A stretch of 64,000 bases of DNA, taken from Bradyrhizobium sp. PSBB068 (GTDB lineage: Bacteria; Pseudomonadota; Alphaproteobacteria; Rhizobiales; Xanthobacteraceae). Below, in pieces: positions 5,926 through 64,000 of this stretch. The notes beneath the pieces were generated by a model, which did no database searches, was not told where the DNA came from, and was given only the letters and a program-made list of their open reading frames with translations. The translations under genes were made by a program, and so were the position numbers. Location of the stretch: NCBI GenBank assembly GCA_016839165.1, contig CP069300.1, forward strand, positions 2,480,001 through 2,544,000. Reading direction: 5' to 3'. How positions within the stretch are numbered: the stretch's first letter is position 1; every line of letters starts with the position of its first letter.

Positions 5926-5937
5926 AATACTCGCTCG

Positions 5938-8091: not shown

Positions 8092-8308
8092 TGCGGGCCG
8101 TCGACTTGTCGCGGCAGGTTTTGAAATTGGGTCATCCGGCGAGGGGCGGACGGCGTCTGCCGCCGCGCTGGGGATTCGAAATGACAACTGAAACCTCGAC
8201 AACCAAAATGGAAATGCAGCAATCGCATTCGATGATTTCGGGGGTAGGCTACAACAAATGGCGAACAAAATCAGCGAAACATGCTTTAAGTATTAATACG
8301 GGAATCGA

Positions 8309-8331
8309 AAGGGCCCCGTTCGGGGCCCTTC
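8309..8331 (-). terminator. Hairpin after the TolC-like gene
   Basis: GGGCCCCG and CGGGGCCC form a tight GC-rich hairpin with a two-base spacer, downstream of the minus-strand stop at 8354. The following T run on the minus strand is short (TTTC), so it may only attenuate transcription into the ABC transporter gene. Confidence 0.5.
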
Positions 8332-8353
8332 GTCCTGATCCTGGTTGGCGGAT

Positions 8354-10072: not shown

Positions 10073-10320
10073 AATTCCGTCCCTACTCAAAAAAAATATT
10101 ACGTATAATCTGGATGACGCTAACAGCGGACGGTTCCGCAACCTATGATATTTCGGCCACACCGTCGCCTTAAGTGGGGCAGAGCGATCGGGCGCCGGTG
10201 ACCGGAACACCGAGCATTTTTATTAAAATTCAACGGTTTATTCGCGCTCCAGGGATCGTTTCGGTTGGTGCCGGCGAGCGACAACGTCGGTCGGAACAAT
10301 CAAGATCGGTTAAATTCGCC
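10073..10320. promoter_or_regulatory. AT-rich upstream region of the secretion operon
   Basis: The stretch before the TolC-like gene is notably AT-rich for this genome (A8 run near 10089, ATATTACGTATAAT, ATTTTTATTAAAATT near 10215) and is the likely promoter region of the minus-strand unit. No specific binding site could be assigned. Confidence 0.4.
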
Positions 10321-35761: not shown

Positions 35762-36111
35762 GCGGCTCGCTCGTTGCGCATCCAGATTGGGGACGAGTAA
35801 ACCAGGACGCCGTGCGGTGAGCCGTTCAGCTGAATCCGGCCGGCGGTTCTGCGTCCGGCGTCAACAAGCGCCACAGGGGCCTTATCGGCACAACAGCCAT
35901 CGAACGCTCTGGTGGCATGGTCCGCTAGCAGGCATGTGCGCTTAGCTGCGCTTCTGGGCGCAGCGATCATTTCTTTGGAACTCGCGCCCGGCGGTAGTCC
36001 TTATTTTCCGTCGATTGAATCCGGTGAAAAATTGCGTCGAGAATTGAATAGGTTACCTTTGGATGTGACGACGTGCATTTTATGACAGTAGCTGGTCGAA
36101 TAGGGATAGCA
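35762..36111. promoter_or_regulatory. Upstream region of the first polysaccharide lyase gene
   Basis: No gene. The last 110 bases (36001-36111) are clearly AT-rich compared with the surroundings and are the likely promoter of the lyase gene. The shared element found before the other two lyase copies is not present here. Confidence 0.45.
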
Positions 36112-37020
36112 ATGAAGATAGTCTTGCCCTTCATCTTTGCGCTGACTGGGAGTGTGGCAAATATCGCTGGTGGATCGACGGCGCTTGGCGCCGATGCTAG
36201 TGATCAGAGGAAGCTGTTGGCTGAGGGGCCGTCCGCCGCTATTGACACTGTTGCTGGCGCCAACGGGAGTACGGCTAGTACAAGAACAGCTGCTCCGTCG
36301 ATCACGTCGTTCTCCGGCAAGCCGCGAACCCGCTTTCAGATCGGCGAGGATGCCTACGGCGTTCACGTTGCTGACCAGAGCTACAGTCTGACCAATCCTG
36401 CTCCTCAAACCCTGCGCTTCGAGGTCCACAAGGGCGACTATGCCTGGTACGACAGCGCGTCTGTCGATCGTGCCGAGATCAATTCCGCGGTGACCTATCC
36501 TGCCGGCACGCCCATCACGCTTACCTACCAGTTCATGGTGGAGGCGAACGGCAGCAACGGAGCGTTCGTGAACAGCGCGACCGGCTGGTTCATCGTCGGA
36601 CAGTGGCACAACGACGACGACGCCTCGGGTGTGGGAACCTCACCTCCGGTCGCGCTGAATATGCAAGGCGATCACCTGCAGGTGCTCGTACGCTACTGTC
36701 CGCCCGGCAAGAGCCCGAGCAACGGTGCGGGCTTCGTCGTCACCAAGACGCTCTGGACCGACCCGACCCCGGTCGTGACCGGCCAGTATCACGACGTGAA
36801 AGTGCAGGCCCGATTCTCGAATGATGCCACTGGTTACCTGAAAGTCTGGATCGATGCGGCACCGGTCGTGAACTACAGCGGACCGCTAGGCTATGGGGTC
36901 GGCACCAATTGGGGATACGGAATTTATCGGTCGTCGGCGCCCGAGATTGCTGCCGTCAATTATCGGCGTTTGACGATAACGAGCGGCTCGTTAACGCCCA
37001 TATCGTCAGGGCAGCCATGA
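36112..37020 (+). CDS. Secreted polysaccharide lyase (heparin-lyase-I-like fold)
   Basis: A 302-residue protein; the ATG at 36112 has AGGGA upstream and begins a Sec signal peptide (MKIVLPFIFALTGSVANIAG). The mature part matches the jelly-roll polysaccharide lyase family: TLRFEVHKGDYAWYD, SVDRAEI, TGWFIVGQWHNDD, VVNYSGPLGYG and a C-terminal YGIYRSSAPEIAAVNYR. It is a paralogue of the proteins at 52420 and 63824, which have no signal peptide. Such enzymes cut acidic polysaccharides; in an exopolysaccharide locus it probably trims or degrades the cell's own polymer. Confidence 0.85.
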   Translation: MKIVLPFIFALTGSVANIAGGSTALGADASDQRKLLAEGPSAAIDTVAGANGSTASTRTAAPSITSFSGKPRTRFQIGEDAYGVHVADQSYSLTNPAPQTLRFEVHKGDYAWYDSASVDRAEINSAVTYPAGTPITLTYQFMVEANGSNGAFVNSATGWFIVGQWHNDDDASGVGTSPPVALNMQGDHLQVLVRYCPPGKSPSNGAGFVVTKTLWTDPTPVVTGQYHDVKVQARFSNDATGYLKVWIDAAPVVNYSGPLGYGVGTNWGYGIYRSSAPEIAAVNYRRLTITSGSLTPISSGQP

Positions 37021-49661: not shown

Positions 49662-51575
49662 TCAAATCGGCTCCCGAACGGAATGCCTCGCTCGAGTTTC
49701 CAGACTTGACGGCCTGAAGGCTCGCAGGAATAGCTCCAGGTTTGCCAGAGACCAAAGCACCTTTTCGTGGTTTTGACGGCGGGCGAGATGCTCGTTGACC
49801 AGCTGCCGCAAGACATCCCTGTTGCAGAACGATGCCACACGCGCGCCATCACTGACCAGCAGATCGGAGATAAATTCGCGATAGGGACCGCGAAACCACT
49901 CCTCAATTGGCACGCGAAAGCCGATCTTCTTGCGCGTCAGAATCCCCGGTGGAAGAGTGTGCTGCATCGCTGCTCGCAGGACTGACTTGCCGCCGCTGCG
50001 ACCGACCAGGAAATTGTCCGGAAACCGCGCGACAAGTTTGGCGAGACTGGTGTCCATGAACGGCATCCTGCCCTCAATTGAACCTGCCATCATCATTCGG
50101 TCAGCGCGTTCGAGGAGGTTGTCGGGTAACCACGACGTCTGATCGAAGAACAGCGTGCGCCGCACATTCGACCCGATGCCGATCGAAAACGGATGGGAAT
50201 CCGGCAGCGCTACGGGCAGGGGACGTCCGATAATCCGGTTCCTTTCGCCAAGGGAAACTCCGCCGAACCAGAGTTGCATCCGGCTCGGCCAATCCCGCTC
50301 GCCCGCCGCGGTCGTCACGATCTTGGCGCGGCGCATATCGTACGGCAGCGCGCGCATTGCGGGCGATATGATGCGGTCATGAATCGCCTGGGGAACCAGT
50401 CGCTGGTAGAGCTCGATCCATTGTTCGGCACGGTGCTTGGGATAGCCGCCCAGAAGTTCGTCTGCGCCTTCTCCGGTAAGGACCATTTTCACCTTGCTCG
50501 CCGCCATATGCGACAGCATCATAACCGGAATATCGGCCGGTTCGGCCGCAGGTGCGCCGCGACGCAGAATTGCGGTCGGCCAGCTCTTCAAGAAGTCGTG
50601 CGGCTCCAGCACGATTTCCTCGTGATCGGTGTCAAATTGACGGGCGATGGTACGGGCGTGATCAAGCTCCGAGTAGCTGGCTTCACGAAAGCCGACTGAG
50701 AAGGTGCGCACGCGCTCAGAGCTATGGCGGACCATGGCCGCGACAACCGCAGATGAGTCGATGCCGCCGGACAAGTAGGCTCCGAACGCAACGTCACTGC
50801 GCATGCGAATGCGCACGGCATCGTCGAACGTCGCCTTGAACATCCGGACTGCCTCGTTGAAGTCCGTGATGTCGGGCTCTGCCGACGCTAGCGGTGGTAT
50901 GAAATACCGGGTGATGTTTGTCCGGCCTTCGCGCCATACCAGGTGGCAGCCGGGGGGAAGCTTGCGCACGGCTTGAAAGAATGTCCTGGGGCCGGGCACA
51001 TATCGATTGAGGAGATAATGCTCGACGGCATGCGGGTCGATCGAGGTATTCATGCCCGGGAATTGGAGGAGCGGCTCGATCTCCGATGCGAACAATAGGC
51101 CTGCGTTCTCGGCTATGAACAGCGGCTTCTTGCCGAACGGGTCGCGCGCCAGGACGAGCTGTTGGGCCCTCGCATCCCACAATCCGAAAGCGAACATGCC
51201 GCGGAAGCGTTTGATCGAATCGACCCCCCAAGCGCGGTAGGCTTCGATCAGAACTTCGGTATCGGAGGATGTGCGAAAGGTGTGACCGAGCGAGTTAAGC
51301 TCCTCGCGCAGCTCGATGTAGTTATAGAGCTCTCCGTTGAAGACGAGCCCGATCGAGCCGTCGGCGCTCCACATCGGCTGGGCTCCGCCCTCGAGATCGA
51401 TGATCGAGAGACGCCTGTGCCCCAAGCTGACTTGATAGCGCTGGTCGGCAGTGTCGCTCTGCCGGTAACCCGCGCCGTCAGGGCCCCTATGCTTCATCAG
51501 GTTGGTGAGGCGGACAAGAGTGTCGTAGTCTTGCCGGTGCTCTCCCCGGAGTACCCAGCCAAAAATCCCGCACAT
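49662..51575 (-). CDS. AsnB-family glutamine amidotransferase
   Basis: A 637-residue protein starting at MCGIFGWVLRG (ATG at 51575), so the nucleophile Cys2 is free after Met removal. An N-terminal class II glutaminase domain (LMKHRGPDGAGY, LVFNGELYNYIELREELN) is followed by the ATP-pyrophosphatase loop AYLSGGIDSSAVVAAM and LTGEGADELLGGYPKHR. This longer type, common in exopolysaccharide loci, is usually called asparagine synthase, but related enzymes amidate uronic acids of surface polysaccharides. With uronate-type pathways nearby, sugar amidation is plausible here (inference). Confidence 0.87.
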   Translation of the reverse strand: MCGIFGWVLRGEHRQDYDTLVRLTNLMKHRGPDGAGYRQSDTADQRYQVSLGHRRLSIIDLEGGAQPMWSADGSIGLVFNGELYNYIELREELNSLGHTFRTSSDTEVLIEAYRAWGVDSIKRFRGMFAFGLWDARAQQLVLARDPFGKKPLFIAENAGLLFASEIEPLLQFPGMNTSIDPHAVEHYLLNRYVPGPRTFFQAVRKLPPGCHLVWREGRTNITRYFIPPLASAEPDITDFNEAVRMFKATFDDAVRIRMRSDVAFGAYLSGGIDSSAVVAAMVRHSSERVRTFSVGFREASYSELDHARTIARQFDTDHEEIVLEPHDFLKSWPTAILRRGAPAAEPADIPVMMLSHMAASKVKMVLTGEGADELLGGYPKHRAEQWIELYQRLVPQAIHDRIISPAMRALPYDMRRAKIVTTAAGERDWPSRMQLWFGGVSLGERNRIIGRPLPVALPDSHPFSIGIGSNVRRTLFFDQTSWLPDNLLERADRMMMAGSIEGRMPFMDTSLAKLVARFPDNFLVGRSGGKSVLRAAMQHTLPPGILTRKKIGFRVPIEEWFRGPYREFISDLLVSDGARVASFCNRDVLRQLVNEHLARRQNHEKVLWSLANLELFLRAFRPSSLETRARHSVREPI

Positions 51576-51766
51576 GACTCCTGCCAGTTTCTTCCGTGCT
51601 GACAGTGCTGGAGCCACGGACGACCATCAAGGAGGAAGGCGGATTAATCCTTCCAGGGTTGCGTCATCGTGTCCTCTCGACTTCCTCGAGAGGCGTGCGC
51701 GCGCCCTGGGTGAAATTGCCAGGGGTCGCTGTGCGGTCGGGCGCCGACGGCTGAAGCTTGTTCGGT

Positions 51767-52141
51767 TCAGCAGCTGATGGTGCAGACAGCTTGGTGGCCC
51801 GTTGAAAATGTGCCCACCGAAAGCGTCAGTGCGCCGTATGAGATCGGTGCATGCCCAATCGGTGTCCGCGGCCATTCAAGAATCCTCGCGCGGCGCTCAT
51901 GGGTGTCGAGGATGATCTTGACGTAGGAGAACCTGTCCACGGCAGCGATCGAGTTGATTGCCTCAATGGGCGCAGTTCGCGACCGCTCCGTTATCCGTAA
52001 TTCTCCGTACTCGATCGCTGCGTTGCTTGCCGCGCGACCTCGATCATTCGTGATGGCGAGCGCCAACATTGACGCTATCGGTTGAAAACTTTTTTGCGCC
52101 CCTACGGCGACGGCGCTGAATTCGACAGCGACGGCAAGCAT
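51767..52141 (-). CDS. Hypothetical protein
   Basis: A 124-residue frame with protein-like content (FSYVKIILDTHERRARILEW, APISYGALTLSVGTFSTGHQ) ending CTISC. There is no clear ribosome binding site, and no competing frame is better. No family was recognised. It is divergent from the lyase gene at 52420 and shares the intergenic stretch with it. Confidence 0.42.
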   Translation of the reverse strand: MLAVAVEFSAVAVGAQKSFQPIASMLALAITNDRGRAASNAAIEYGELRITERSRTAPIEAINSIAAVDRFSYVKIILDTHERRARILEWPRTPIGHAPISYGALTLSVGTFSTGHQAVCTISC

Positions 52142-52196
52142 ATGCTCCAGGCGCTGTTGTTTGGACGCTTCAAACTACAGCCAAGCTGGGTAACTC

Positions 52197-52266
52197 TTTT
52201 TTGCCATACTCCCTGATTAACCAGCGGGCTCTGCAGTTGGGGATGGGCGATTCGCACTGCATCGGA
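52197..52266 (+). promoter_or_regulatory. Shared upstream element, copy A
   Basis: T6, GCCAT, nine bases, TTAAC and a downstream GGGG run, then GCATCGGAATGT. It lies about 223 bases before the TTG start at 52420. It matches copies B (54483) and C (63598). Confidence 0.65.
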
Positions 52267-52364
52267 ATGTGCACGCAGTAGATCCTGTGAGGCATCGAAA
52301 TCCGCTCGTGGCGCAAGGCGTTGCGAGTGCGTGGTATGTCGCGCGCCTTCGCGCCGCGGCCGTA

Positions 52365-52596
52365 AATTCCCTTGTAAGCGTCAAAGAGAAGCAATCTCTG
52401 CGACCGATGGAGGCCTGAATTGGATACGACCGGGACAATCACATCGTTTTCTTCCGCACCGATGACAAGGTTCAATATCGGTGGTGACAGCTACGGAGTT
52501 CAGGATGCGAGCACGAGCTATGCCCTGACCAATCCCGACCCGCAAACCCTGCGCTTCGAAGTGCAGCAGGGCGATCATGCCTGGTACGATGACTCA
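52365..52596 (+). repeat. Duplicated segment (leader and start of the lyase gene), copy 1
   Basis: From AATTCCCTTGTAAGCG onward this segment is nearly identical to 63769-64000, with only about six differences over 232 bases. It includes the ribosome binding site and the first 59 codons of the lyase. The duplication extends beyond the right window edge. Confidence 0.93.
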
Positions 52597-54222
52597 TCTG
52601 TCGATCGCTCCGAGGTGTCGGGCGCGACCAACATTCCGGGCAGCACGCCCATTGCGTTGAATTATCAGTTCATGGTGGAGCCGAATGGCCCTAACGGGAC
52701 ATTTGTGAATACGGCAACCGGCTGGTTCATCGTTGGACAAATGCACAATGATGACTGGGCCAGCGGAGTAGGCACCTCGCCGCCGTTCGCGATCCAGCTG
52801 GATGGCAATCATCTACAGGTTGTCGCCAGATATGTCGCCCCTGGTCTCGATCCCAGCAATGGCGCCGGCAACGTGCAGATGCTCACGCTCTGGACCGACC
52901 CCAATCCGATTCAGGCGGGCGTGTATAACAACATTCAGATCCAGGCCGATGTCTCGAACACCGGTGGCGGGTATTTGAAGGTCTCGATCAACGGGACCCA
53001 GGTCGTGAATTACAATGGCCCGTTGGGCTATGGCGTCGACACCAATTGGGAATACGGAATCTATCGGTCGTCGGCCCCCGAGACCGTTGCCGTCGATTAC
53101 CGAAACATGACGCTACTGACGGGGGCGGCGGCCACTGCCTCGTCACCGTCGACGACGCCGACGCAGCCGACCACGCCGACCACCCCCACCGTCGCGCCGA
53201 CGGTGACACAGGCCTCCGCTTCGCCGGGGACCGGAACCGAGCATGTCGGCGATGTTGTCACCTTTACGCTCGCTTTTAGCGAAGCCGTGACCGTCGCAGG
53301 TACGCCGACGCTGTCGCTCAACGATGGCGCAGGAGCCACCTATGTTGGCGGCTCCGGGACAAATACGCTCACCTTCCAGACGAAAGTCGCGTCGACTGAT
53401 ACGAATACTTCGGCACTTGCGATCACCGGGGTCAATCTTGCGAGCGGTGCGAGCATCAAGGATTCCGGGGGGCTTGCCGCTGATCTCTCGGGCGCGGTGA
53501 AGACATTCTCCGGTCTGCAGATCTCGAACACGCCGATCATGCCAACGCAGCCAACCACACCGACGACGCCGACAACTCCGACGACGCCGGTGGTGACCGC
53601 GCCGGTGCTCTCCATCGCGGACCACGCGCTCTGGGTGGCTGGCAGGGGCGGCCACGTCAGCCTGGGGACGACGGTGTCGACGACCGATCCCAACGACAGC
53701 GTCAGTCTGAACATCAAAGGGCTGCCGAGATATGAGACGATCACGACCGGCGATGGCACCACGTTCAGGGGCAGCAACATCACTCTGAGCGCAGCGCAGG
53801 TTGCCAGCGGACTGACGCTGACGTCGCACTACAGGGGCAGTCAACATCCGGTCGCGAACCTCACACTGACTGCGACCGCGAAGGACCCGGTTACCGGCGC
53901 AGTGGCTTCCTCGGCGACACAGACCATCAAAGTCACGGATCCGCTGCCGTCTACCGGCACCGGGAGCACGGCACACCACGGCCATGGGCTGCACCACCAC
54001 CTAGGGTCAGGCCGCAGCACGCTGGCAGCTACCGTGCCGCAGACAACCTCTTCGGCGAATTACGAAACGGCCAAAGGGTCCCAAGCAAACCACAGCTTCG
54101 CGCTGCTGAACCAATATTTGGCTGGTGGCTCCGGTCGGGTCGACGGCGGTCAGATCGCGGAAGCCGTGTCGAACGGTGCCGCCTGGACGCAGAACGCGTT
54201 CCTGACGAAGCCGCATCACTAA
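52420..54222 (+). CDS. Multidomain polysaccharide lyase without signal peptide (probable type I secretion substrate)
   Basis: A 600-residue protein. The TTG start at 52420 has a perfect GGAGG six bases upstream. Residues of about 1-235 are the lyase domain (FEVQQGDHAWYDDSSVDRSE, TGWFIVGQMHNDD), homologous to the Sec-exported protein at 36112. Then come a Thr-Pro linker, an Ig-like domain (TFTLAFSEAVTVAGTPTLSL), a second Thr-Pro linker, a cadherin-like part (about 400-515), a His-rich stretch and a short C-terminal domain (FALLNQYLAGGSGRVDGG). There is no Sec signal and no RTX repeats. A type I exporter gene follows, as with Rhizobium PlyA-type glycanases that leave by PrsDE (known for that family). 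Confidence 0.85.
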   Translation: MDTTGTITSFSSAPMTRFNIGGDSYGVQDASTSYALTNPDPQTLRFEVQQGDHAWYDDSSVDRSEVSGATNIPGSTPIALNYQFMVEPNGPNGTFVNTATGWFIVGQMHNDDWASGVGTSPPFAIQLDGNHLQVVARYVAPGLDPSNGAGNVQMLTLWTDPNPIQAGVYNNIQIQADVSNTGGGYLKVSINGTQVVNYNGPLGYGVDTNWEYGIYRSSAPETVAVDYRNMTLLTGAAATASSPSTTPTQPTTPTTPTVAPTVTQASASPGTGTEHVGDVVTFTLAFSEAVTVAGTPTLSLNDGAGATYVGGSGTNTLTFQTKVASTDTNTSALAITGVNLASGASIKDSGGLAADLSGAVKTFSGLQISNTPIMPTQPTTPTTPTTPTTPVVTAPVLSIADHALWVAGRGGHVSLGTTVSTTDPNDSVSLNIKGLPRYETITTGDGTTFRGSNITLSAAQVASGLTLTSHYRGSQHPVANLTLTATAKDPVTGAVASSATQTIKVTDPLPSTGTGSTAHHGHGLHHHLGSGRSTLAATVPQTTSSANYETAKGSQANHSFALLNQYLAGGSGRVDGGQIAEAVSNGAAWTQNAFLTKPHH

Positions 54223-54227
54223 CGTAC

Positions 54228-54262
54228 TGCCGCACCCGGGCACTGGACGCCCGGGTGCGGCA
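54228..54262. terminator. Perfect 14-bp hairpin after the lyase gene
   Basis: TGCCGCACCCGGGC pairs fully with GCCCGGGTGCGGCA around a 7-base loop, six bases behind the lyase stop. The following sequence has AATTTT but no long T run. It probably ends or attenuates lyase transcription before the transporter gene. Confidence 0.8.
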
Positions 54263-54482
54263 CCGCCAATTTTGGGGACGCCGCACGGCAAAATTGGTCG
54301 GTCGGTAGCCGCGAAGGGGAGATCGAAAAACCAATCCACAACGGACGGTTGCCGGCCGTCGTCGTTTGGCGGACAATCGCCGAAGGGATTCCGATTCGAT
54401 ACTTCATTGAGAGCGTAAAACGCCTGAGTTCAGGTCAGTTTTCGGGCACAACTTGCGTGTGTATGAATCCACAATTCGAAAG

Positions 54483-54539
54483 TTTTTTCGCCATTTTTGC
54501 TCGTTAACCAACCTGCTCAGCCTGTCGGGGGGGCAATTC
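54483..54539 (+). promoter_or_regulatory. Shared upstream element, copy B
   Basis: T6, CGCCAT, nine bases, TTAAC, then TGTC and a run of seven G followed by CAATTC. It is 240 bases ahead of the transporter ATG and matches copies A and C. Confidence 0.65.
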
Positions 54540-54722
54540 AAAATATCCCGTCGCGCTGAAATCTCCTCGCGGTTCGAGGCCTTAACGCTCTGATGATTGC
54601 TTGCGCCGTTTTGGCTGCGAGCACGCGTATGTCGCGTATCTTCGGATAGGCGTCATTGGAATTCCATGTGCATGCAAAGGACCACAAACGCTGGCGGTAG
54701 CCGCGAGGGGTAGAGTAACGAA

Positions 54723-57473
54723 ATGGCGATCCAGAACGGAAATGCCCACGCAGCTCCAGATCTGGGGCTTCGAGCGCTGGCTCTGTTCCTGCGCTTTCAT
54801 GGCGTGAACACCGAGCCTGATCAACTCCGCGATCACTGCGGAGAGGATGGGATAGGCATCCGCGCAATGCTGCGTTGTGCGCGCGAATTTGGGGTCAAAG
54901 TCCGCGCGACGACGATGGATTGGTCGCGGCTGACGGGCATCCAGCTGCCTGGAATCGCCTCGCTCCGTGACGGCGGATTTTTGCTTCTAGGAAAAATCGA
55001 GGATCAGGTTGCGCTTGTGCTGCACCCGACCTCGTCGCATCCGCGACGAATGACGCGCGCGGAATTTGAAGCGATCTGGGATGGCGGTTTGATCTCGCCT
55101 GGCTCACCGAGCTTCGCTCATCTCGCACTTCATGCAATTGGCGACATCCGCGCGCGCGGCGTTGAGCTGGGTAGCAGCCTGTTGCGCCGCGCGGGCGACG
55201 TGCTGGTCGGGGCCCGCGACGGCCTGGTGCGGATCCGCGATACAATCTCGACGAAGGCGCCCGGCGCCCTGATGTGGGCGCGCTTTGTTGCTCGCGGCGA
55301 TACTGCCGACGAGGCCGCGGATATCGGATCTCCGGCTGCAGACGTCGGTTTCGAAGACGGCGATGAATCCGGGCTGATTGCGCTCGCGATCTTGCTGCGT
55401 TGCCATGGAATCGCTGCCGATCCCGGCCAAATCCACCACCGGGTGGGGGCGACGCGCCTCGGCGTTACCGAAATCCTGCGCTGTGCCAAAGAGTTTGGGC
55501 TCAAGGCAAAGGTGCAGAGGACGAACTGGAACAGGCTTGCGGTCACGCCGCTGCCGGGAATTGCGCTGCTGCGCGACGGCAGCTTCCTGATCCTCGGCAA
55601 GGTTATCGACGACAAGCTTCTCATTCAGCGCCCGCTGTCTCCGCGCCCCGAATCCATCACCCAGGCGCAACTCGAGGCGATCTGGGACGGCGGCATCATT
55701 CTGATGGCCCGGCGTACCAGCCTGACCGATCTCGCGCGGCGTTTCGATATCTCCTGGTTCGTGGGCGCCATGCAGAAGTATCGCCGCCTGCTCGGCGAGG
55801 TGCTGGCGGCGTCGTTCTTCCTTCAGATATTCGCCGTTGTCTCACCGCTGTTCTTCCAGGTGGTCATCGACAAGGTGCTCGTGCACCGAAGCATGAGCAC
55901 GCTCGACGTTCTGGTCATCGGCCTTGTCGTGCTGACGGTGCTCGAGGCCGTTCTCGAGACGCTGCGCGTCTATGTGTTCGCGCATACGACAAACCGTATC
56001 GACGTCGAGCTCGGGGCCAGACTGTTCCGTCACCTGATGGCACTGCCGATTGCCTATTTTCAGACCCGCCGCGTCGGCGATTCGGTGGCCCGGGTCCGCG
56101 AGCTGGAGAACATCCGCCAGTTCCTGACAAGCTCGGCGCTCACGCTGGTCATCGACCTTCTCTTCACGGTCGTCTTCCTTGTCGTGATGTTCTATTACTC
56201 GACGACGTTGACCTGGATCGTGCTCGCGTCCTTCCCGTTCTACATCGGTATCTCCGCGGGAGCCACGCCGCTGTTCCGCGCGCGCCTCGATGAGAAATTC
56301 AATCGCGGCTCCGAGAACCAAGCCTTCCTGGTCGAGAGCGTGACCGGCGTTGAGACGCTCAAGGCGATGGCGGTCGAGCCCCAGATGCAGCGCCGCTGGG
56401 AGGAGCAACTCGCCGGCTATGTGGCCGCAAGCTTCCGCGTGCTCAGCCTGAACAACACGGCGAGCCAGGCGGTCCAGATGATCAACAAGCTGGTCATCGC
56501 TGCGACCCTTTACTTCGGCGCCCGGTTGGTCATCAGCGGCGACCTGACCGTCGGCGAGCTCGTCGCGTTCAACATGCTTGCGGCGCGCGTGAGCACGCCG
56601 GTGCTGCGCCTCGCACAGGTCTGGCAGGACTTTCACCAGGCGCGTGTCTCGATCGATCGCCTCGGCGACATCCTGAACACCATTCCAGAGCCGAGCTTCA
56701 CCCCGGCCCGCGCCGCTCTGCCGCCGATCCGCGGCCACGTGAAGTTCGAGCACGCGACCTTCCGCTACCGCATCGACGGGCCCGAGGTGCTGCATGACGT
56801 GTCGTTCAGCGTGGAGCCGGGCCAGGTCATCGGCATCGTGGGCTCGTCTGGCTCAGGCAAGAGCACCATCACCAAGCTGATCCAGCGTCTCTATGTTCCG
56901 GAGAGCGGACGCGTCCTGGTCGATGGCGTCGATCTCGCAATGGTCGACCTGAGCTGGCTGCGGCGCCAGATCGGCGTCGTGCTGCAGGAAAATGTGCTTT
57001 TCAATTGCACGATTCGCGACAATATCGCATTGGCTGATCCGGCCATGCCGATGGAGCGCGTTATCGAGGCGGCAATGCTGGCCGGTGCACACGACTTCAT
57101 CCTGGAATTGCCCGAGGGTTACGACACCGTCGTGGGCGAGCGCGGCAGCAGCCTGTCTGGCGGACAGCGCCAGCGTATTGCAATCGCGCGCGCACTGATC
57201 ACCGATCCGCGCATCCTGATCCTCGACGAGGCGACCAGCGCACTGGATTACGAAAGTGAACGCGCGATCCAGCAGAACATGAGGCGGATTTCCGCCGGAA
57301 GGACCGTGTTCGTCATCGCTCATCGGCTGTCGACGGTCCGCAATGCGAGCCGGATCATCACGCTGGAGCATGGCCGCATCGTCGAAGACGGCAGCCACGA
57401 TGAACTGATCCGCAGCAACGGGCGTTACGCGAACCTTCACTATCTCCAGGCCGGTATTCATGACCTCCGCTAG
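54723..57473 (+). CDS. Type I secretion ABC transporter with two tandem C39-like domains
   Basis: A 916-residue protein. Two homologous N-terminal domains (about 10-125 and 213-332) share the pattern LRCHG ... ILRCAKEFGLK ... LPGIALLRDGSFLILGK ... EAIWDGG. Both lack the C39 catalytic cysteine at the expected place (RALALFLRFHG, IALAILLRCHG), so they are degenerate substrate-binding domains. A six-helix membrane domain follows (about 355-640), then the ATPase with Walker A near 707-715 (GSSGSGKST), signature LSGGQ at 811-815 and Walker B at 831-836 (ILILDE). One such domain is usual; two is unusual. It overlaps the HlyD gene by 14 bases. Confidence 0.93.
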   Translation: MAIQNGNAHAAPDLGLRALALFLRFHGVNTEPDQLRDHCGEDGIGIRAMLRCAREFGVKVRATTMDWSRLTGIQLPGIASLRDGGFLLLGKIEDQVALVLHPTSSHPRRMTRAEFEAIWDGGLISPGSPSFAHLALHAIGDIRARGVELGSSLLRRAGDVLVGARDGLVRIRDTISTKAPGALMWARFVARGDTADEAADIGSPAADVGFEDGDESGLIALAILLRCHGIAADPGQIHHRVGATRLGVTEILRCAKEFGLKAKVQRTNWNRLAVTPLPGIALLRDGSFLILGKVIDDKLLIQRPLSPRPESITQAQLEAIWDGGIILMARRTSLTDLARRFDISWFVGAMQKYRRLLGEVLAASFFLQIFAVVSPLFFQVVIDKVLVHRSMSTLDVLVIGLVVLTVLEAVLETLRVYVFAHTTNRIDVELGARLFRHLMALPIAYFQTRRVGDSVARVRELENIRQFLTSSALTLVIDLLFTVVFLVVMFYYSTTLTWIVLASFPFYIGISAGATPLFRARLDEKFNRGSENQAFLVESVTGVETLKAMAVEPQMQRRWEEQLAGYVAASFRVLSLNNTASQAVQMINKLVIAATLYFGARLVISGDLTVGELVAFNMLAARVSTPVLRLAQVWQDFHQARVSIDRLGDILNTIPEPSFTPARAALPPIRGHVKFEHATFRYRIDGPEVLHDVSFSVEPGQVIGIVGSSGSGKSTITKLIQRLYVPESGRVLVDGVDLAMVDLSWLRRQIGVVLQENVLFNCTIRDNIALADPAMPMERVIEAAMLAGAHDFILELPEGYDTVVGERGSSLSGGQRQRIAIARALITDPRILILDEATSALDYESERAIQQNMRRISAGRTVFVIAHRLSTVRNASRIITLEHGRIVEDGSHDELIRSNGRYANLHYLQAGIHDLR

Positions 57474-58884
57474 CCGCAATGTTGTCTCGTTTCCGAGGCG
57501 CGAGCCTCGCCGTCGCCAGCACGAAATCGCGTTCTTGCCGGCGGCGCTTGAGATCACTGAAACGCCGCCGTCGCCGGTCGGCCGCGCGATAGGGGCGACC
57601 ATCATCGCGGCGTTCTGCATCGCGCTGGTATGGGCGACGCTTGGCAGTGTCGACATCGTCGCCACCGCGACCGGCAAGATCGTGCCGGGCGGGCGCACCA
57701 AGCTGATCCAGCCGTTCGAGACGGGCGTTGTCCGCGCCATCCAGGTCCGCGACGGCCAGACCGTGAAGGCCGGCGACGTTCTGATCGAACTCGACCCGAC
57801 GATGACGGAAGCCGATCAGGAGCGCCAAAAAGGCGATCTGCTTGCGGCCGAGCTCGAGGTCGCGCGATTGCAGGCCGCGCTCGCAGCCGATCCGCTCGCC
57901 GCCTTCCGTGCTCCGCCCAACGCCAGCCCCGCCGAGATCGAGATGCATCGCCAGTTCTTGATCAGCCAGCGCGCCGAGCAAGATGCCAAGCTTTCCGAAA
58001 TCGAACGACAGCAAGGTCAGAAGGAGGCGGAGCGGGCAACCACGTCGGCAAGCGTTGCCAAGCTGGAAGCAACAATCCCCGTGCTGCAGGAACGGGTCGA
58101 TATCCGCAAGGGCCTCGTCGAAAAGGCACTGGCCTCCAAGGTTGTCTACCTCTCCGAATATCAGGACCTGGTTGCCATGCAGCAGGATCTCGTGCTGCAA
58201 AAGAGCCGGTTGCGCGAAGCCGACGCGGCGATGGCGCTGCTGAAGGAAACAAGGGACAAGACTGTCGCGGAGTACCGCCGCGCGACCTACGATGCACTTG
58301 CAAAGGCCGAGCAGAAGGTTGCGAGCGCGGCGCAGGAGGTGGTCAAGGCGGATCGGCGCACGAAGCTGCAGCGTTTGACCGCGCCTGTCGATGGCGTCGT
58401 GCAGCAGCTTGCCGTTCACACGGTGGGCGGCGTGGTGACGCCGGCTCAGGCGCTCGCAGTAGTGGTCCCGAGCGAGAGCCAGCTCGAGATCGAGGCCATG
58501 CTCTCCAACCGCGATATCGGATTCGTCCATCCGGGGCAGGCGGCGGAGATCAAGGTCGATACCTTCAACTTCACGCGCTACGGACTGCTTCACGGTGACG
58601 TGCTCAGCGTGTCGACGGATGCCATTGCGCGCGACAGGACGCAGGGGTCGAACGACCGCGCGTCAGGCGCCACGCTGAGCAGCAGCGAGCCGAAAGGTCA
58701 GGAGCTCGAATATGCCGCGCGCGTTTCACTCGACCGGACTCACATGCAAGTGGAGGACAAGGTCGTCAAGCTCGGTCCGGGCATGGCGGTGACGGTCGAG
58801 ATCAAGACCGGTACGCGCAGGATCATCAGCTACCTGCTTTCGCCGCTGGCGAGATACAAGCAGGAAGCGCTGCGGGAACGGTAG
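57460..58884 (+). CDS. HlyD-family type I secretion adaptor
   Basis: A 474-residue membrane fusion protein, coupled to the ABC gene by a 14-base overlap. A cytoplasmic N-terminus with basic residues is followed by one membrane segment (about 40-62, IGATIIAAFCIALVWATLGS), the lipoyl half VVRAIQVRDGQTVKAGDVLI, a coiled-coil hairpin (about 115-300), the second half LTAPVDGVVQQLAVHTVGGV and a beta-barrel region. The end LLSPLARYKQEALRER is typical. No TolC gene lies next to it; the TolC-like protein at 8354-10072 or another one could complete the channel. Confidence 0.92.
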   Translation: MTSASRNVVSFPRREPRRRQHEIAFLPAALEITETPPSPVGRAIGATIIAAFCIALVWATLGSVDIVATATGKIVPGGRTKLIQPFETGVVRAIQVRDGQTVKAGDVLIELDPTMTEADQERQKGDLLAAELEVARLQAALAADPLAAFRAPPNASPAEIEMHRQFLISQRAEQDAKLSEIERQQGQKEAERATTSASVAKLEATIPVLQERVDIRKGLVEKALASKVVYLSEYQDLVAMQQDLVLQKSRLREADAAMALLKETRDKTVAEYRRATYDALAKAEQKVASAAQEVVKADRRTKLQRLTAPVDGVVQQLAVHTVGGVVTPAQALAVVVPSESQLEIEAMLSNRDIGFVHPGQAAEIKVDTFNFTRYGLLHGDVLSVSTDAIARDRTQGSNDRASGATLSSSEPKGQELEYAARVSLDRTHMQVEDKVVKLGPGMAVTVEIKTGTRRIISYLLSPLARYKQEALRER

Positions 58885-59402
58885 GAAGCCGTCTTTCTTC
58901 GGCGCGCCCTCGGAGCACCGCAACTGGCGCCACGCGGGCCCAAAAGGCGATGTTGGAAAGGCCGGGATCGATCGTATCACGATCCCGGTCGGGCATCAGC
59001 GCAGAGGGTGGCGCAGCCCTAAGGCAACAGCTGTTGGGATCGCCGCTGAACGGCTGGCGTAGCGCGCTTTGGCCTGCGGATGATCGAGTCAAGGCCCGAT
59101 CCGCCGTCCAGCGGATCACTGGATCGGTTGGGCGCCCGCCTGACGTGCGGACACGGCACGAGGCCGCCGCCAACAATCTCGACGCCGGGACGTTCGTCAG
59201 CTGCGCCCGTCGCGCACCGGTCCCGCCGTCGATCCGAGGGCGCAACACGGGGCCTATCCCGGAGCCTCTCAACGCATTCTGGTTACTTCGGATTGTGCGC
59301 TGTTCAGCTGGCGAATTCAATGTCACTGTTTAGGCATTGCGGTTCAAGGCGAGCGCTGATTGTCGTGACGTAGATCAGCCGGCATACGGAAGGGTTATCA
59401 CC
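58885..59402. other. Stretch without a recognisable gene
   Basis: 518 bases between the HlyD gene and asnB with no convincing frame. The region just before 59403 carries GGAAGGG, which serves the asnB TTG start. Confidence 0.35.
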
Positions 59403-61070
59403 TTGTGCGGCTTCGTCGGCATATTCGAATTTACGGAATCGTTTGAATCGGCACGCAGCCGCGCGCTGGAGATGGCAAAGACGGTTAGACACCGCGGGCC
59501 GGACTGGAGTGGCGTCTATTCCAGCGAACGCGCAATGCTCGCGCACGAACGCCTTTCCATCGTCGATGTTGAGCACGGCGCCCAGCCCCTTCTCGACGTT
59601 ACCGCGGGTCGGGCGTTGGCTGTGAACGGAGAGATCTACAATCATGTCGCATTGCGCGACGCCCTGAACCGGCCGCACGCCTGGAAAACGAAGTCGGACT
59701 GCGAGATTATCCTGTATCTCTATGACGAGTACGGACCAGCCTTGTGCAATATGCTGAGTGGCATTTTTGCGTTCGCTCTCTTCGACGAACGTACCGGCGA
59801 CTTCTTCGTCGCCCGAGACCACCTCGGAATAGTGCCGCTTTATATTGGATGGAGCGAGGACGGCGCAACATACGTCGCCAGCGAAATGAAAGCTCTCGAT
59901 CGCGTGTGCGAGACGATTCAGGAGTTTGCGCCGGGACACTACTATAACGGCAAAACCCGCGAATTCGTCAGGTGGTATGATCCGGAATGGGCGCATGCAT
60001 TGCCAACCAGGAAGGTGGTGTTGCACGAGCTTCGGACTTCGCTCGAAGCCGCAGTCAAGCAGCAGATGATGTGCGATGTGCCTTACGGGGTACTTATTTC
60101 TGGTGGGCTCGACTCGTCCCTCATCGCAGCCCTCGCAGCACGGCACCGCTTCAAGCGGATCGAGTCTGGGGAGACCGAGGAGGCCTGGTGGCCAAGATTG
60201 CACTCGTTCTCCGTGGGTTTGGAAAATTCACCCGACATGATGTATGCGCGAAAGGTGGCGGCTCACATCGACACCGTCCATCATGAAATTGTTTTCACCG
60301 TACAGGACGGACTGGACGCGTTGCCCGATGTCATCCGGCACCTGGAAACCTTCGATGTCACCACCATTCGTGCCGGCACGCCGATGTATTTGATGGCGCG
60401 CAAGATCAAGGCGATGGGCATCAAGATGGTGTTGTCTGGCGAAGGCGCTGACGAGGTATTCGGCGGGTATCTCTACTTCCATATGGCGCCATCGGCAGAG
60501 GAATTCCACGAGGAGACTGTTCGAAAGCTCTTTGCGCTGAGCAGGTACGATTGCTGTCGCGCGAACAAGGCGACGGCTGCTTGGGGAGTCGAAGCCCGTG
60601 TGCCCTTCCTGGACAAGGAATTCCTGGATTACGCAATGTCGATCGACCCTGCCGAAAAAATGTGCCCCGGTGCGAAGATCGAAAAGGGCATATTGCGGGA
60701 AGCTTTTGCCGACCTGTTGCCGCAGGAGATCTTGTGGCGTCAAAAGGAACAGTTTTCAGACGGAGTGGGGTACAGCTGGATTGAGTGCTTGCGGAATCAC
60801 GCCGAGAGCAAAGTCTCGGATCAGATGCTCGCAGAGGCGGGGAGGCGGTTTCCGCTGCAAACGCCGACCTCGAAGGAAGGATACTTCTATCGGACCATAT
60901 TCGACGGCATTTTCAAGAATCCGACAGCCTGCCTGACTGTCCCCGTCGGTCCCTCGATCGCGTGTTCCTCGCCGACCGCATTTCTCTGGTCTCAGCAGTT
61001 TGCGAGTATGGATGATCCGTCTGGAAGGGCCGTGAAAGGCGTGCACATTCAGGCCATTGATACCATGTGA
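59403..61070 (+). CDS. asnB: Asparagine synthetase B (glutamine-hydrolysing)
   Basis: A 555-residue protein starting at a TTG (MCGFVGIFEF) with GGAAGGG eight bases upstream, so Cys2 is the nucleophile. The sequence is very close in pattern and length to enterobacterial AsnB: VRHRGPDWSGVYSSE, LAHERLSIVDVEHGAQPLLD, VLISGGLDSSLIAALA, MVLSGEGADEVFGGYLYFHM, WGVEARVPFLDKEFLDYAMS, and SDGVGYSWIECL. It converts aspartate to asparagine with glutamine and ATP. It differs clearly from the amidotransferase at 49662, so the two are not recent duplicates. The presence of a canonical AsnB in this accessory region may reflect transfer. Confidence 0.95.
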   Translation: MCGFVGIFEFTESFESARSRALEMAKTVRHRGPDWSGVYSSERAMLAHERLSIVDVEHGAQPLLDVTAGRALAVNGEIYNHVALRDALNRPHAWKTKSDCEIILYLYDEYGPALCNMLSGIFAFALFDERTGDFFVARDHLGIVPLYIGWSEDGATYVASEMKALDRVCETIQEFAPGHYYNGKTREFVRWYDPEWAHALPTRKVVLHELRTSLEAAVKQQMMCDVPYGVLISGGLDSSLIAALAARHRFKRIESGETEEAWWPRLHSFSVGLENSPDMMYARKVAAHIDTVHHEIVFTVQDGLDALPDVIRHLETFDVTTIRAGTPMYLMARKIKAMGIKMVLSGEGADEVFGGYLYFHMAPSAEEFHEETVRKLFALSRYDCCRANKATAAWGVEARVPFLDKEFLDYAMSIDPAEKMCPGAKIEKGILREAFADLLPQEILWRQKEQFSDGVGYSWIECLRNHAESKVSDQMLAEAGRRFPLQTPTSKEGYFYRTIFDGIFKNPTACLTVPVGPSIACSSPTAFLWSQQFASMDDPSGRAVKGVHIQAIDTM

Positions 61071-61116
61071 GCAGTTTGCGTGTCCGGTGGTTCGGCAGGC
61101 GGCAGCGGCCGATAGC

Positions 61117-62283
61117 TCAATTTGCATTTGCTGATCCGAATAGCCGCAGCTTCTTTCTTGGGAGGTTCGTCGCGATCGTTCGCAGCGTCCGTTTGGCTTC
61201 GCGGAGCTTCGCCTCGATATGGCGTTCCGGACCGTCCCTGCTTATTGCGACCCACTTCATCGCATACTCGCTATTCGCCAGATGTGCCTTGTGCCCGGCG
61301 CCACCAGCCAGGAAGTCGTAGCCGCGCTCCCCGCGTGAGATACTCTCCTCGATAGCCAGCACATGGCTCACCAGCCCGGGCTTGAGGCGGCCATCGCTCT
61401 CATAGAGAAAGCCGCTTTGGTAGTTCAGGACGCGGCCGTCATGCACGAAATTGTAGACGACCCCGATGGTCTGGCCGCCAACCAACGTCCGCGAGATGCG
61501 GACCGCTCCTGTGGGAACTCCGCGCGCGATTAACTCCTCATGGAACGGACGAAAGCCCGGATTGGCGAAAGCCCCCTTGCGTCCCCATCGCGATCGATGA
61601 AAGTCGCTCAGTAGATCGAACGCAGCCAGGGCGTCCGTTGTTGTCTCCATGATCCGGAATTCAAGGGGACCTCGTTCGGCATACAGCCTCATTGCACGGC
61701 TCACCGCCTGGCGAGTGCTGCGGCCGAGCGTGGCCCGGTAATCCTTCTTCTGCTGACGGGCCTTGGCGTAATCAACCCATAAGGCCGTATCGGCCTGCTT
61801 CACCTCGCTGACGAGCCCGGCCCGGCCGGCGGCGCCGCAAGCGGCCAACTCGAGATCTGCATCAATTCCGGAAAGCACCAACTGATCCGCGCGGCGCAAG
61901 CGGGAGGTCAGCGCGTCGAGACCTGCCGGAATAATGGTGTCCGGTTGCTCCGCGAGAATACTGTTGCACTCGATGAACAATCGGTCAAAACGGGTATCTC
62001 CGGATTCATTGAGCAGCCAACGTGCCCGCGCATGCGGCCCAAGGCTCCAGACTCTCCGCCGGCAGATGATCGCCAACCCAACGATCTTGCCCGACGATCG
62101 TGCGACGAGAACGTGCGGTTGCGTGCCATCCGGAATATGCCGCAGCCAAGTGCCGATCCAGAGCCAGGACAAAAAGAACGAGTGAGTGGCCCGAGCTTCA
62201 AGCTCCTTCCACGCGGTCTCAAGCCAGGCAACGTTCTCGAGGGCCTCTAGGCTGACATCGGTGACCGCATCGGGCATGCTCAT
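61117..62283 (-). CDS. CelD/BioF2-like acetyltransferase (GNAT fold)
   Basis: A 388-residue protein. The N-terminal half starts with ALENVAWLETAWKELEARAT and SWLWIGTWLRHIPDG, typical of the CelD family; the C-terminal GNAT-like domain has HRSRWGRKGAFANPGFRPFH and VYNFVHDGRVLNYQSGFLYE followed by GYDFLAGGAGHK. Such proteins occur in cellulose and exopolysaccharide clusters and may acylate sugars. The ATG at 62283 is used here; an ATG at 62277 has a better spaced GGGA and may be the true start. Confidence 0.82.
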   Translation of the reverse strand: MSMPDAVTDVSLEALENVAWLETAWKELEARATHSFFLSWLWIGTWLRHIPDGTQPHVLVARSSGKIVGLAIICRRRVWSLGPHARARWLLNESGDTRFDRLFIECNSILAEQPDTIIPAGLDALTSRLRRADQLVLSGIDADLELAACGAAGRAGLVSEVKQADTALWVDYAKARQQKKDYRATLGRSTRQAVSRAMRLYAERGPLEFRIMETTTDALAAFDLLSDFHRSRWGRKGAFANPGFRPFHEELIARGVPTGAVRISRTLVGGQTIGVVYNFVHDGRVLNYQSGFLYESDGRLKPGLVSHVLAIEESISRGERGYDFLAGGAGHKAHLANSEYAMKWVAISRDGPERHIEAKLREAKRTLRTIATNLPRKKLRLFGSANAN

Positions 62284-62637
62284 TCCCGTTCAACGCCGGA
62301 AGGCTGCAAATGCGCGTTGATGGACGAACAAGGATCGTGCTGCATTGATCGCAAGTAGTGCCATGATGGGTGGTCCGGCCTGGTCACACACGTCCTTGTG
62401 GCGGCCTCGCCGTATGGCGTCTCTGACCGTCGCCTCGGCGGAGGCGGATGGCGGAATTATATCTGGAATTCGACCCCTGTGCGGACCCTTACTGATTACC
62501 TACGGTGGCTTCACGCGACTTGATTGCCTTTAGCACGACCGCGCTGAGTTGGTGCTGTGATCGGCCCCGGGCTCTCGGCGGGCGCCAGAGCTCCCGCCCG
62601 GCGCCTGATGGGGCAATTCCAGGCCGGTTTCCGCCGC
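62284..62637. other. Stretch without a recognisable gene
   Basis: 354 bases with no convincing frame; it should contain the promoter of the minus-strand acetyltransferase gene. Confidence 0.3.
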
Positions 62638-62838
62638 TTAATTGGGCATCAGTCCCGGCGAGGACAGCTTTCCGCTTAGGTGCGCACCTGCCTCGGCGTG
62701 TCGAGCGAGCCTTATCAACGCCTCCTTGGCGGCGCACGGGGCCAGTCCCGCGGCCTCGTTCCGCAGCTCTCTAGCCCGCTCTGCGAGTCGCGCTTCGAGG
62801 GTGTCCCTCAGAACAACGTGTCGGCGTAATTGTCCCAT
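62638..62838 (-). CDS. Small conserved hypothetical protein
   Basis: A 66-residue protein (MGQLRRHVVLRDTLEARLAE...) starting at the ATG at 62838 with GAGGG eight bases upstream. It is helical throughout (ARELRNEAAGLAPCAAKEAL, IRLARHAEAGAHLSGKLSSP). Short proteins with the ending HL..WLSSPGL are frequent in Bradyrhizobium; the role is unknown. A longer frame to 63222 lacks protein character. Confidence 0.6.
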   Translation of the reverse strand: MGQLRRHVVLRDTLEARLAERARELRNEAAGLAPCAAKEALIRLARHAEAGAHLSGKLSSPGLMPN

Positions 62839-63288
62839 GCGTTTTCCCTCGTCGGGGCCCCACCCGGAACTTTGGATCCCAAGCATTAATCGTGCGTAAA
62901 GATTCCCCTGAAGGGGGTGTCTGGGCCGCCAAGACGGCGCGAAGAGGGCGCCAAATAGGACAAATTGCGAATTGCTGGCGAAGGCAACCTTTGTGGAATG
63001 GCCCAAGGGGACATCGAGATTCGCTCGGCGACCCGAGCCGGCGGTCATTCCGGGACGGGAAGTTGTCGTTTTCCACCGGTTAGAGCGCCACCCGCGCCTG
63101 TGGTGACCTGCGATGTGCGTCGGACGGTCTGGTTCGTCACAGAGAGTGTGTCGATCTCGCAACGTCTCAATAGTTCCGCTGTGCACCTGACGTGTTTGGG
63201 CTTCAATGCGTTGCGAATTCATTGTCTAATGACGTCGGACCTTCGGCGGCGATTTTTATTTCCAAGACGTTTATTTTAGATCGGGTCT
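62839..63288. other. Stretch without a recognisable gene
   Basis: 450 bases without a convincing frame. The end (63240-63285) is AT-rich (GATTTTTATTTCC, GTTTATTTTAGATC) and looks like a promoter for the short membrane-peptide gene. Confidence 0.35.
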
Positions 63289-63325
63289 AAGAGGTCGCTG
63301 TCAGCGCCAGCGGCCTCTTCGTTTT
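63289..63325 (+). terminator. Terminator-like hairpin upstream of the short membrane-peptide gene
   Basis: AAGAGGTCGCTG and CAGCGGCCTCTT form a near-perfect 12-bp stem with a 7-base loop, followed by CGTTTTGC. No plus-strand gene ends just before it. It may be an attenuator or the end of a small RNA starting in the AT-rich part. Confidence 0.55.
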
Positions 63326-63353
63326 GCTTCATTGGATTGCGAGGACCCATCCG

Positions 63354-63446
63354 ATGCCGATACAGGTGTGGGCTATTGCCGCTTCGATCGGCTGGACCGC
63401 TGTCGTGGGTACGTTGCTTCTCCACATGATTTTCAGCCCCGGCTAA
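63354..63446 (+). CDS. 30-residue single-pass membrane peptide
   Basis: A very short gene with GAGGA eight bases before the ATG. The product is MPIQVWAIAASIGWTAVVGT followed by LLLHMIFSPG, almost entirely one hydrophobic helix. The ribosome binding site, the upstream AT-rich segment and the hairpin support a real small protein. The function is unknown; it has no toxin-like charge pattern. Confidence 0.55.
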   Translation: MPIQVWAIAASIGWTAVVGTLLLHMIFSPG

Positions 63447-63597
63447 TTTGACGAAGCTGCGATGTGGTGCCGGCCGAGCGATATGGAGCCTCTTCGCCAA
63501 TCGCGGAATTTCAGCGGTAGCGCCAGGCATATGAGGGCAGGCATGTGGTCGTCGGCGCCGCCGGTTGGCCTCTTCTAATTGTCGCCATGCCAGCTCA

Positions 63598-63666
63598 TTT
63601 TTTTCGCCATACTCTCTCATTAACGAATCAAGTCCAGGCGGTCGGGGGCAATCCCGCTGCATCGGA
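63598..63666 (+). promoter_or_regulatory. Shared upstream element, copy C
   Basis: T7, CGCCAT, nine bases, TTAAC, then GGTC, five G and CAATCC, followed by GCATCGGAATGT. It lies about 226 bases before the TTG start at 63824 and matches copies A and B. Confidence 0.65.
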
Positions 63667-63768
63667 ATGTTCGCGGTCGAGGACTGCGATGGCATCCGAA
63701 GTTCGTTCGCAGCGCCGAGCGTAGCGAACGCGTACTGTGTCGCGTGCCATCGCGACGTGTGTCAGTGG

Positions 63769-64000
63769 AATTCCCTTGTAAGCGTCAAAGAGAAGCAATC
63801 TCTGCGACCGATGGAGGCCTGAATTGGATACGACCGGGACAATCACATCGTTTTCTTCCGCACCGATGACAAGGTTCAATATCGGTGGTGACAGCTACGG
63901 AGTTCAGGATGCGAGCACGAGCTATGCCCTGACCAATCCTGACTCGCAAACCCTGCGCTTCGAAGTGCAGCAGGGCGATAATGCCTGGTACGACAGCTCA
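63769..64000 (+). repeat. Duplicated segment (leader and start of the lyase gene), copy 2
   Basis: Nearly identical to 52365-52596, including GGAGG, the TTG start and the first 59 codons. Homology weakens upstream of 63769 but can still be aligned back to the shared element at 63598. Confidence 0.93.
63824..64000 (+). CDS. Polysaccharide lyase without signal peptide, N-terminal part (cut by window edge)
   Basis: TTG start with GGAGG six bases upstream, exactly as in the gene at 52420. The 59 visible codons differ from that gene at only a few positions (for example Asn for His in QQGDNAWYD and Ser-Ser for Asp-Ser after it). It is the third member of the lyase family in the window. Whether it keeps the Ig-like and Thr-Pro parts cannot be seen. 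Confidence 0.85.
   Translation, partial: MDTTGTITSFSSAPMTRFNIGGDSYGVQDASTSYALTNPDSQTLRFEVQQGDNAWYDSS

Follow-up and report, generated by a model that had tools for sequence, protein, structure and literature searches.

The window examined here is a stretch of 64,000 nucleotides (nt) from Bradyrhizobium sp. PSBB068 (contig CP069300.1, positions 2,480,001 to 2,544,000, forward strand). Its right-hand part contains two genes for polysaccharide lyases and a gene pair for a type I exporter with tandem C39-like domains, and the starts of both lyases and of the exporter are each preceded by a copy of one short element and by a 5' leader with hairpins. This cassette, with its PF14099 lyase cargo, lies beside a Wza/Wzz/Wzx/Wzy-type polysaccharide locus, situated upstream, which also encodes glycosyltransferases and a UDP-sugar dehydrogenase. 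The features, in window coordinates, are the following, R1 being the covariance model of the leader hairpins and aa standing for amino acids:

36073-37020, + strand: twin lyase, 315 aa; ATG codons at 36085 and 36112 are possible alternative starts
52196-52224, + strand: element copy 1 (family D4), before lyase A
52225-52419, + strand: leader of lyase A; R1 match at 52294-52363 (G000:C1:2532294-2532363), E 9e-14
52420-54222, + strand: cargo lyase A, TTG start, 600 aa; lyase domain aa 1-232, Ig-like domain aa 259-372, conserved middle domain aa 394-500, C-terminal tail aa 541-600
54483-54511, + strand: element copy 2 (family D4), before the exporter
54512-54722, + strand: leader of the exporter; R1 match at 54589-54657, E 1.3e-12
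54723-57473, + strand: exporter ABC subunit, 916 aa; two Peptidase_C39 stretches (C39-like domains at about aa 12-125 and at aa 212-332), then the membrane (ABC_membrane) and ATPase (ABC_tran) domains
57460-58884, + strand: HlyD-family periplasmic adaptor, 474 aa
63599-63627, + strand: element copy 3 (family D4), before lyase B
63628-63823, + strand: leader of lyase B; R1 match at 63695-63766, E 7.5e-13
63824-64000, + strand: cargo lyase B, TTG start, cut by the window end

The reading frames of lyase A, the ABC subunit and the adaptor are open from the starts given in an earlier, sequence-only reading of this DNA (the original prediction), and lyase B is a complete 419-aa frame in the genome (L009:3825-5084), ending in the same C-terminal tail as lyase A. 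Lyase A can be assigned to the PF14099 polysaccharide lyase family by its score (38.8 bits, above the curated cutoff of 29.9), and its named relatives are all from Bradyrhizobium (7 loci, 5 species records). The ABC subunit belongs to the HlyB subfamily (TIGR01846, 1075 bits, cutoff 725.55) and the adaptor to the HlyD family (TIGR01843, 397 bits, cutoff 208.65). The lyases had been predicted to have no signal peptide, which agrees with their N-termini: a hydrophobic N-terminal segment is lacking in the cargos of this system, the 12-aa hydropathy maximum being at most 1.26 in 77 typed cargos. The cargo tail, which reads S-F-A-L-L-N-Q-Y..., is borne in this genome by lyases A and B only (the third match has E 4.2), and RTX nonapeptide repeats (GGxGxDxU) were found in 0 of 80 cargo genes. 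The tandem C39-like domains of the exporter are present as predicted. A catalytic Cys was not found at the second one in any of 73 exporters (Ser in 69, Ala in 3, Arg in 1), nor at the first one in 72 of the 73, where Leu, His, Gln or Ser stands at a position set by our own reading of the motif. The second domain can be aligned with that of HlyB, Ser216 lying opposite HlyB Tyr9, which replaces the catalytic Cys. The nearest paralogue of the exporter (L037:7467-9608, - strand; genome positions 6179475-6181580) is 73% identical, has one C39-like domain and adjoins a divergent, unrelated 999-aa gene without the tail.

A co-occurrence of lyases, exporter and element among Bradyrhizobium genomes had been proposed as a check, and its outcome is favourable. 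The tandem exporter occurs in at least 73 of 265 genomes of the genus, the leader (R1, E<=0.001) in 76, and both together in at least 72, the leader being found in 72 of the 73 tandem-exporter genomes. At E<=1e-6, R1 is matched in 72 genomes, 71 of them with a tandem exporter. The comparisons below use 73 tandem-exporter loci (72 fetched and the present one), picked by us among the matches listed for the 265 genomes; diverged tandem exporters can lie outside this set, such as the one in G108 and possibly long frames in G018 and, as a second, in G039. In 72 of the 73 loci, the gene located 35-711 nt before the exporter carries the C-terminal module of the cargos. The middle domain of this module was recognized in 72 loci and, by BLAST, the tail in 69; G008, G109 and G167 have a tail that is diverged but recognizable by sequence.

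The element upstream of the starts is found in this genome at the cassette only. The common element that had been noticed before the three starts is indeed found at 52196, 54483 and 63599, and a gapped pattern derived for it has three forward matches and no reverse match in the whole 7.67-Mb genome, with none for the reversed-pattern control. Its 27-nt consensus, with up to 3 mismatches, retrieves the same three sites and nowhere else (control 0). Over the 73 homologous loci, an element matrix, seeded on the three copies of this genome and refined on the very loci it scored, gave 91 matches, located in 68 loci and all of them on the coding strand (0 on the opposite one); four of the five loci without a match are cut by contig ends near the cargo, and the fifth (G073) has no cargo. 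A chance occurrence is ruled out by these genome-wide patterns, their controls and the strand-specific matches. No convincing fit of the element to a CtrA-like or other named binding site was seen, no search aimed at one having been made. Upstream sequence of 400 nt or more is available for 66 adjacent cargo genes, and the element precedes 61 of them; in G079, G214, G218 and G082 it stands before the exporter only, and G065 has the fifth cargo gene without a copy. A separate copy precedes the exporter in all 18 loci with more than 400 nt between cargo and exporter and in none of the 54 loci in which the two are closer, which is what would be seen if a short-gap exporter is read from the promoter of the cargo. 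Such a distribution supports the predicted shared control of cargo and exporter.

The leaders that follow the element are the second shared component. The two lyase leaders had been described as identical; from 52365 and 63769, leader and start are 97% identical over 232 nt. Among the 114 R1 matches at E<1e-6 in the genus, 97 lie on the same strand as a tandem exporter and at most 25 kb away from it. Of the remaining 17, ten are cut by a contig end. The other 7, interior and spread over six loci (G008, G074, G099, G109, G215, G253), are all followed immediately by a gene that encodes the tail (five) or the middle domain (one, G008), the proteins having played no part in finding them. The weaker matches that were fetched (E 1e-4 to 9e-4; G029, G071, G147, G178, G264) have neither element nor cargo. 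A known Rfam family is ruled out for the leader: a search of window positions 50000-64000 at E<=5 gave one sub-threshold minus-strand DnaX match, outside the leader hairpins, and six fetched loci gave no family at gathering cutoffs.

It is a real possibility, somewhat below an even chance, that the element acts solely as a promoter or as the operator of a DNA-binding regulator and that the hairpins, which vary in number downstream of it, are no regulatory RNA. The most conserved block is indeed the 29-nt element with about 17 nt upstream of it, outside the hairpins. The folding energy of the leaders is also weakly unusual at best (z of -1.5, -0.6 and -2.2 in this genome; median -1.3 over 88 leaders, control -0.2), and RNAalifold found almost no structure in the first leader alignments. 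These observations count against a structured leader, and with it against a part of the explanation proposed below. On the other side, standard pairs occupy 91.7% of the cells of two helices in 35 leaders, versus 24-55% when the partner is slid by 1 to 3 columns; the observed value is reached by 0 of 500 shuffles (shuffled mean 89.5%). Changes on both sides are seen in 8 of 19 pairs, compared with a shuffled mean of 4.2 and reached in 2 of 500. The R1 alignment used for these counts comprises 35 of the 60 segments found by pattern among 90. Since one arm of helix 2 is partly prescribed by this pattern, helix 1 provides the fairer test of covariation. Hairpins are moreover kept at nearly every copy, and element and hairpins could both act.

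Comparison of the cargos reveals how the cassette differs from a system for lyases. A Thr/Pro-rich linker joins the N-terminal domain of the cargo to its C-terminal module, and the N-terminal domain is of five types in 70 typed loci: PF14099 lyase (39), T5 (11), GH16 (9), T3 (9) and beta-helix (2). The types were sorted by profiles without cross-match at E<=1e-5, two further cargos being cut by contig ends and untyped, and for the representatives that were tested the lyase, GH16 and beta-helix assignments are borne out by Pfam. The exporter tree requires at least 22 changes of cargo type over these loci, a count taken on the best tree, which was built quickly and has 18 of its 70 inner branches open. 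The starred sister pairs G039/G230, G156/G160, G033/G218, G021/G082 and G110/G196 differ in type; between G110 and G196, identity is 97.8% for the exporters and 91.4% for the modules, yet one of them has a lyase domain and the other a T5 domain. Over 36 lyase loci, the identity of the exporters is tracked by that of the modules (r 0.81), but not by that of the lyase domains (r 0.09); with the own clade left out, the values are 0.80 and -0.02, both lyase-domain correlations being computed on trimmed N-ends. Module and exporter identity are correlated over all 72 loci (r 0.69), and module identity is the same within cargo types (0.607) as between them (0.602). A lyase-specific system is ruled out by this exchange of the catalytic domain among five families. 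Two of the types are of interest in themselves. T5 (L101:15378-16163, - strand, and 10 other loci) is a candidate polysaccharide-active domain, with a confident AlphaFold model of a relative (pLDDT 96.1), no Pfam or NCBIfam family and no Foldseek match at E<=0.001. T3 (L086:2588-3460, + strand, and relatives) has 226 homologues, the named ones being hypothetical proteins or bearing generic names; most have no Pfam family, and Trp, Gln, His and Asp positions are strongly conserved.

The original prediction counted two lyases at the locus, an inventory which has to be corrected by a third lyase domain, at 36073-37020. This protein scores 62.4 bits with PF14099 (E 7e-17), its lyase domain is 61% identical to that of lyase A, and it has a signal-like N-terminus (hydropathy 2.26) and no C-terminal module. 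Such twins, in which the catalytic domain occurs without the module, were found in 33 genomes (24 lyase, 8 T3, 1 beta-helix), and the twin type equals the cargo type in 33 of 33. Shuffled labels, relatedness being ignored, give a mean of 14.4 and a maximum of 24 in 10,000. The search used all cargo domains on the fetched stretches, which added 14 twins, plus lyase matches seen genome-wide; it is thus uneven, both flanks being covered for 41 of the 73 loci and 15 of the 33 twins being known as untranslated matches. A hydrophobic N-terminal segment is present in the 17 translated twins (1.65-3.06, versus the cargo maximum of 1.26) and is visible in the sequence of the G256 twin. For the other 15, the match to the twin of this genome begins at residue 2-16, inside its signal-like segment, compared with residue 64-76 for the matches of cargos. 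Near the lyase cargos of G004, G054, G064, G140 and G260 lie proteins about 545 aa long that begin with a twin-arginine-like sequence (MRRRDLLTGLLATTT) and weakly resemble the lyases in their C-terminal half (for example L204:4574-6211, + strand; similar ones in the L129, L208-L211 set).

The genes around the cassette vary with the cargo. They were compared in the 41 loci with both flanks, counting relatives at 45% identity and 60% coverage; the queries were genes of this genome, itself one of the 19 lyase loci. Deacetylase relatives occur in 16 of the 19 lyase loci versus 2 of the 22 others. Asparagine-synthase-like genes flank the cassette here (49662-51617, - strand; 59337-61070, + strand), and relatives of the first one are found in 13 of the 19 lyase loci versus 0 of 22. 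DegT relatives are seen in 9 of 10 T5 loci versus 1 of 31 others, this one being the present genome. In independent pairs of the tree, DegT goes with T5 in 6 of 7 and never in the reverse direction (p 0.031), and the deacetylase with the lyase in a mean of 4.6 of 7, again never in reverse (median p 0.0625). The evidence for a link between cargo type and neighbouring polysaccharide genes is good but falls short of proof.

Taken at the sequence level, these comparisons show that the catalytic domain changes while exporter, module and leader stay, and that the twins found follow its type and the polysaccharide genes near the locus differ. The cassette is probably, in our judgement, a dedicated type I secretion system for enzymes acting on the surface polysaccharide or exopolysaccharide of the strain itself. 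Each cargo would combine an exchangeable, mostly carbohydrate-active N-terminal domain with a constant C-terminal module, the tail of which is a candidate export signal that may be read by the two proteolytically degenerate C39-like domains. The cargo would leave in one step through the ABC subunit, the HlyD adaptor and an outer-membrane channel encoded elsewhere. Cargo and exporter would be made together, from mRNAs starting at one conserved promoter-proximal element and sharing the multi-hairpin leader. The same catalytic family often being present twice, the signal-bearing copy may act in the periplasm and the other one outside. The remodelling module of the original prediction is therefore retained indirectly, through the type-matched twins and the variation of cargo type with the polysaccharide genes, and abandoned as a lyase system as such.

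Several further observations weigh against this explanation. No gene for an outer-membrane channel was found in the cassette. T3 and T5 have no Pfam or NCBIfam match and no clear structure match, which leaves the word enzyme unproven for 20 of the 70 typed loci. No twins were found for T5 and GH16 loci, in a search that covered the two flanks for 10 of 11 and 8 of 9 of them, respectively. Relatives that are characteristic of T5 loci (DegT, Gfo/Idh and hexapeptide) are also present at the locus of this genome, which makes the context match less than clean here. G073 has an exporter locus without cargo or leader. Finally, the family-wide search matched 34 of 391 genomes, 9 of them outside the genus, and in these nine loci (L144-L152) the cargo module precedes the exporter in 7 and the element is present in only 1, which suggests that the leader is younger or less mobile than exporter and module. 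As regards channels, another type I exporter lies in the window at 4675-10207 (- strand), with a C39-type ABC gene (5938-8268) and an outer-membrane channel (OEP) gene (8354-10210). The channel gene from 8354 could also serve the tandem exporter. The frame between 4675 and 5925 is a possible adaptor of this other system, and the large Ig/cadherin-like protein at 3-3356 (+ strand; PF17963, PF17803) a possible cargo of it.

Some enzymes of the PF14099, GH16 and beta-helix families are directed at foreign glycans, and rhizobia meet plant cell walls; the cargos could on these grounds be directed at polysaccharides of plants or of other microbes instead of those of the producer. This is unlikely, since the cargo type varies with the neighbouring polysaccharide genes and since a signal-bearing twin would stay in the periplasm, where only the own polymer is expected. 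It is a little less probable still that the cargos are polysaccharide-binding matrix proteins and no enzymes: their Ig-like and linker modules, the lack of a named catalytic family for T3 and T5, and the binding of exopolysaccharide by RapD-type cadherin-like proteins of Rhizobium, as described in PMC9298526, would fit, but lyase, GH16 and beta-helix domains make up 50 of the 70 typed loci. A general type I exporter with the adjacent cargo as one client among many, on the model of rhizobial PrsDE and its many protein clients (PMC2275737), is the least probable reading and can be largely set aside, given the tail confined to two lyases in the genome, the cargo beside the exporter in 72 of 73 loci, the joint variation of module and exporter sequences, and a nearest paralogue with one C39-like domain and an unrelated neighbour.

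Among known systems, a constant C-terminal module with an exchanged active part recalls polymorphic toxins and phage depolymerases, where a constant delivery part is combined with an exchangeable effector domain; here the exchangeable domain is polysaccharide-active and varies with the biosynthesis locus. The ExoK glycanase of Sinorhizobium meliloti has a signal peptide. ExoK and ExsH both cut succinoglycan, and ExsH is exported by PrsDE (PMC1403797), a pair of glycanases for one polymer, one of which leaves through a type I exporter; in contrast to this pair, the catalytic family of the cargo as well as that of the twin differs here from strain to strain, and RTX repeats are absent from the cargo. 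In Rhizobium leguminosarum, the plyA gene precedes prsDE, and PlyA and PlyB are exported by PrsDE (PMC2275737). The likeness lies in a type I exporter, a glycanase gene directly upstream and signal-less enzymes cleaving the own acidic exopolysaccharide (PMC2275737, PMC1403797). In contrast to the many clients of PrsDE, the present system is marked by C39-like domains in tandem, by a tail of its own, by the leader common to cargo and exporter and by catalytic-domain exchange, architectures only being compared. With HlyB-type exporters it shares the subfamily and a second C39-like domain that can be aligned to that of HlyB, and it differs in the tandem arrangement of two such domains and in a cargo that lacks RTX repeats, C39-like domains being tied to RTX cargo in a review (PMC8277102). 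By analogy, the cassette is the same kind of thing as PrsDE/PlyA and ExoK/ExsH, with export as a prediction. The additions that its sequences point to are a tandem C39-like exporter for non-RTX cargo, the shared leader, and the exchange of catalytic domains with type-matched twins.

A further proposal is made more tentatively, at nearly even chances: the leader may be a new class of cis-acting structured RNA defining a secretion regulon, in which a gene behind the leader is a client of the tandem exporter, and the cassette may be a plug-in slot, in which the catalytic domains of cargo and twin are replaced together with the polysaccharide locus. Roughly one in four of the Bradyrhizobium genomes searched has the cassette, in which no fewer than five cargo families replace one another on an export module that stays constant; the recognition code of a non-RTX type I exporter could be studied on these natural chimeras. 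The cassette also provides a candidate structured leader without Rfam family, a short tail with which any protein might be marked for export in Bradyrhizobium, and two unnamed domain families, T3 and T5, as candidates for new polysaccharide-active enzymes. How the polysaccharide-trimming enzymes of rhizobia are matched to a polymer that varies between strains is, to our knowledge, not settled, and the cassette would make this question testable. If the proposal of a plug-in slot is true, a strain that changes its coat also changes the enzymes that trim this coat.

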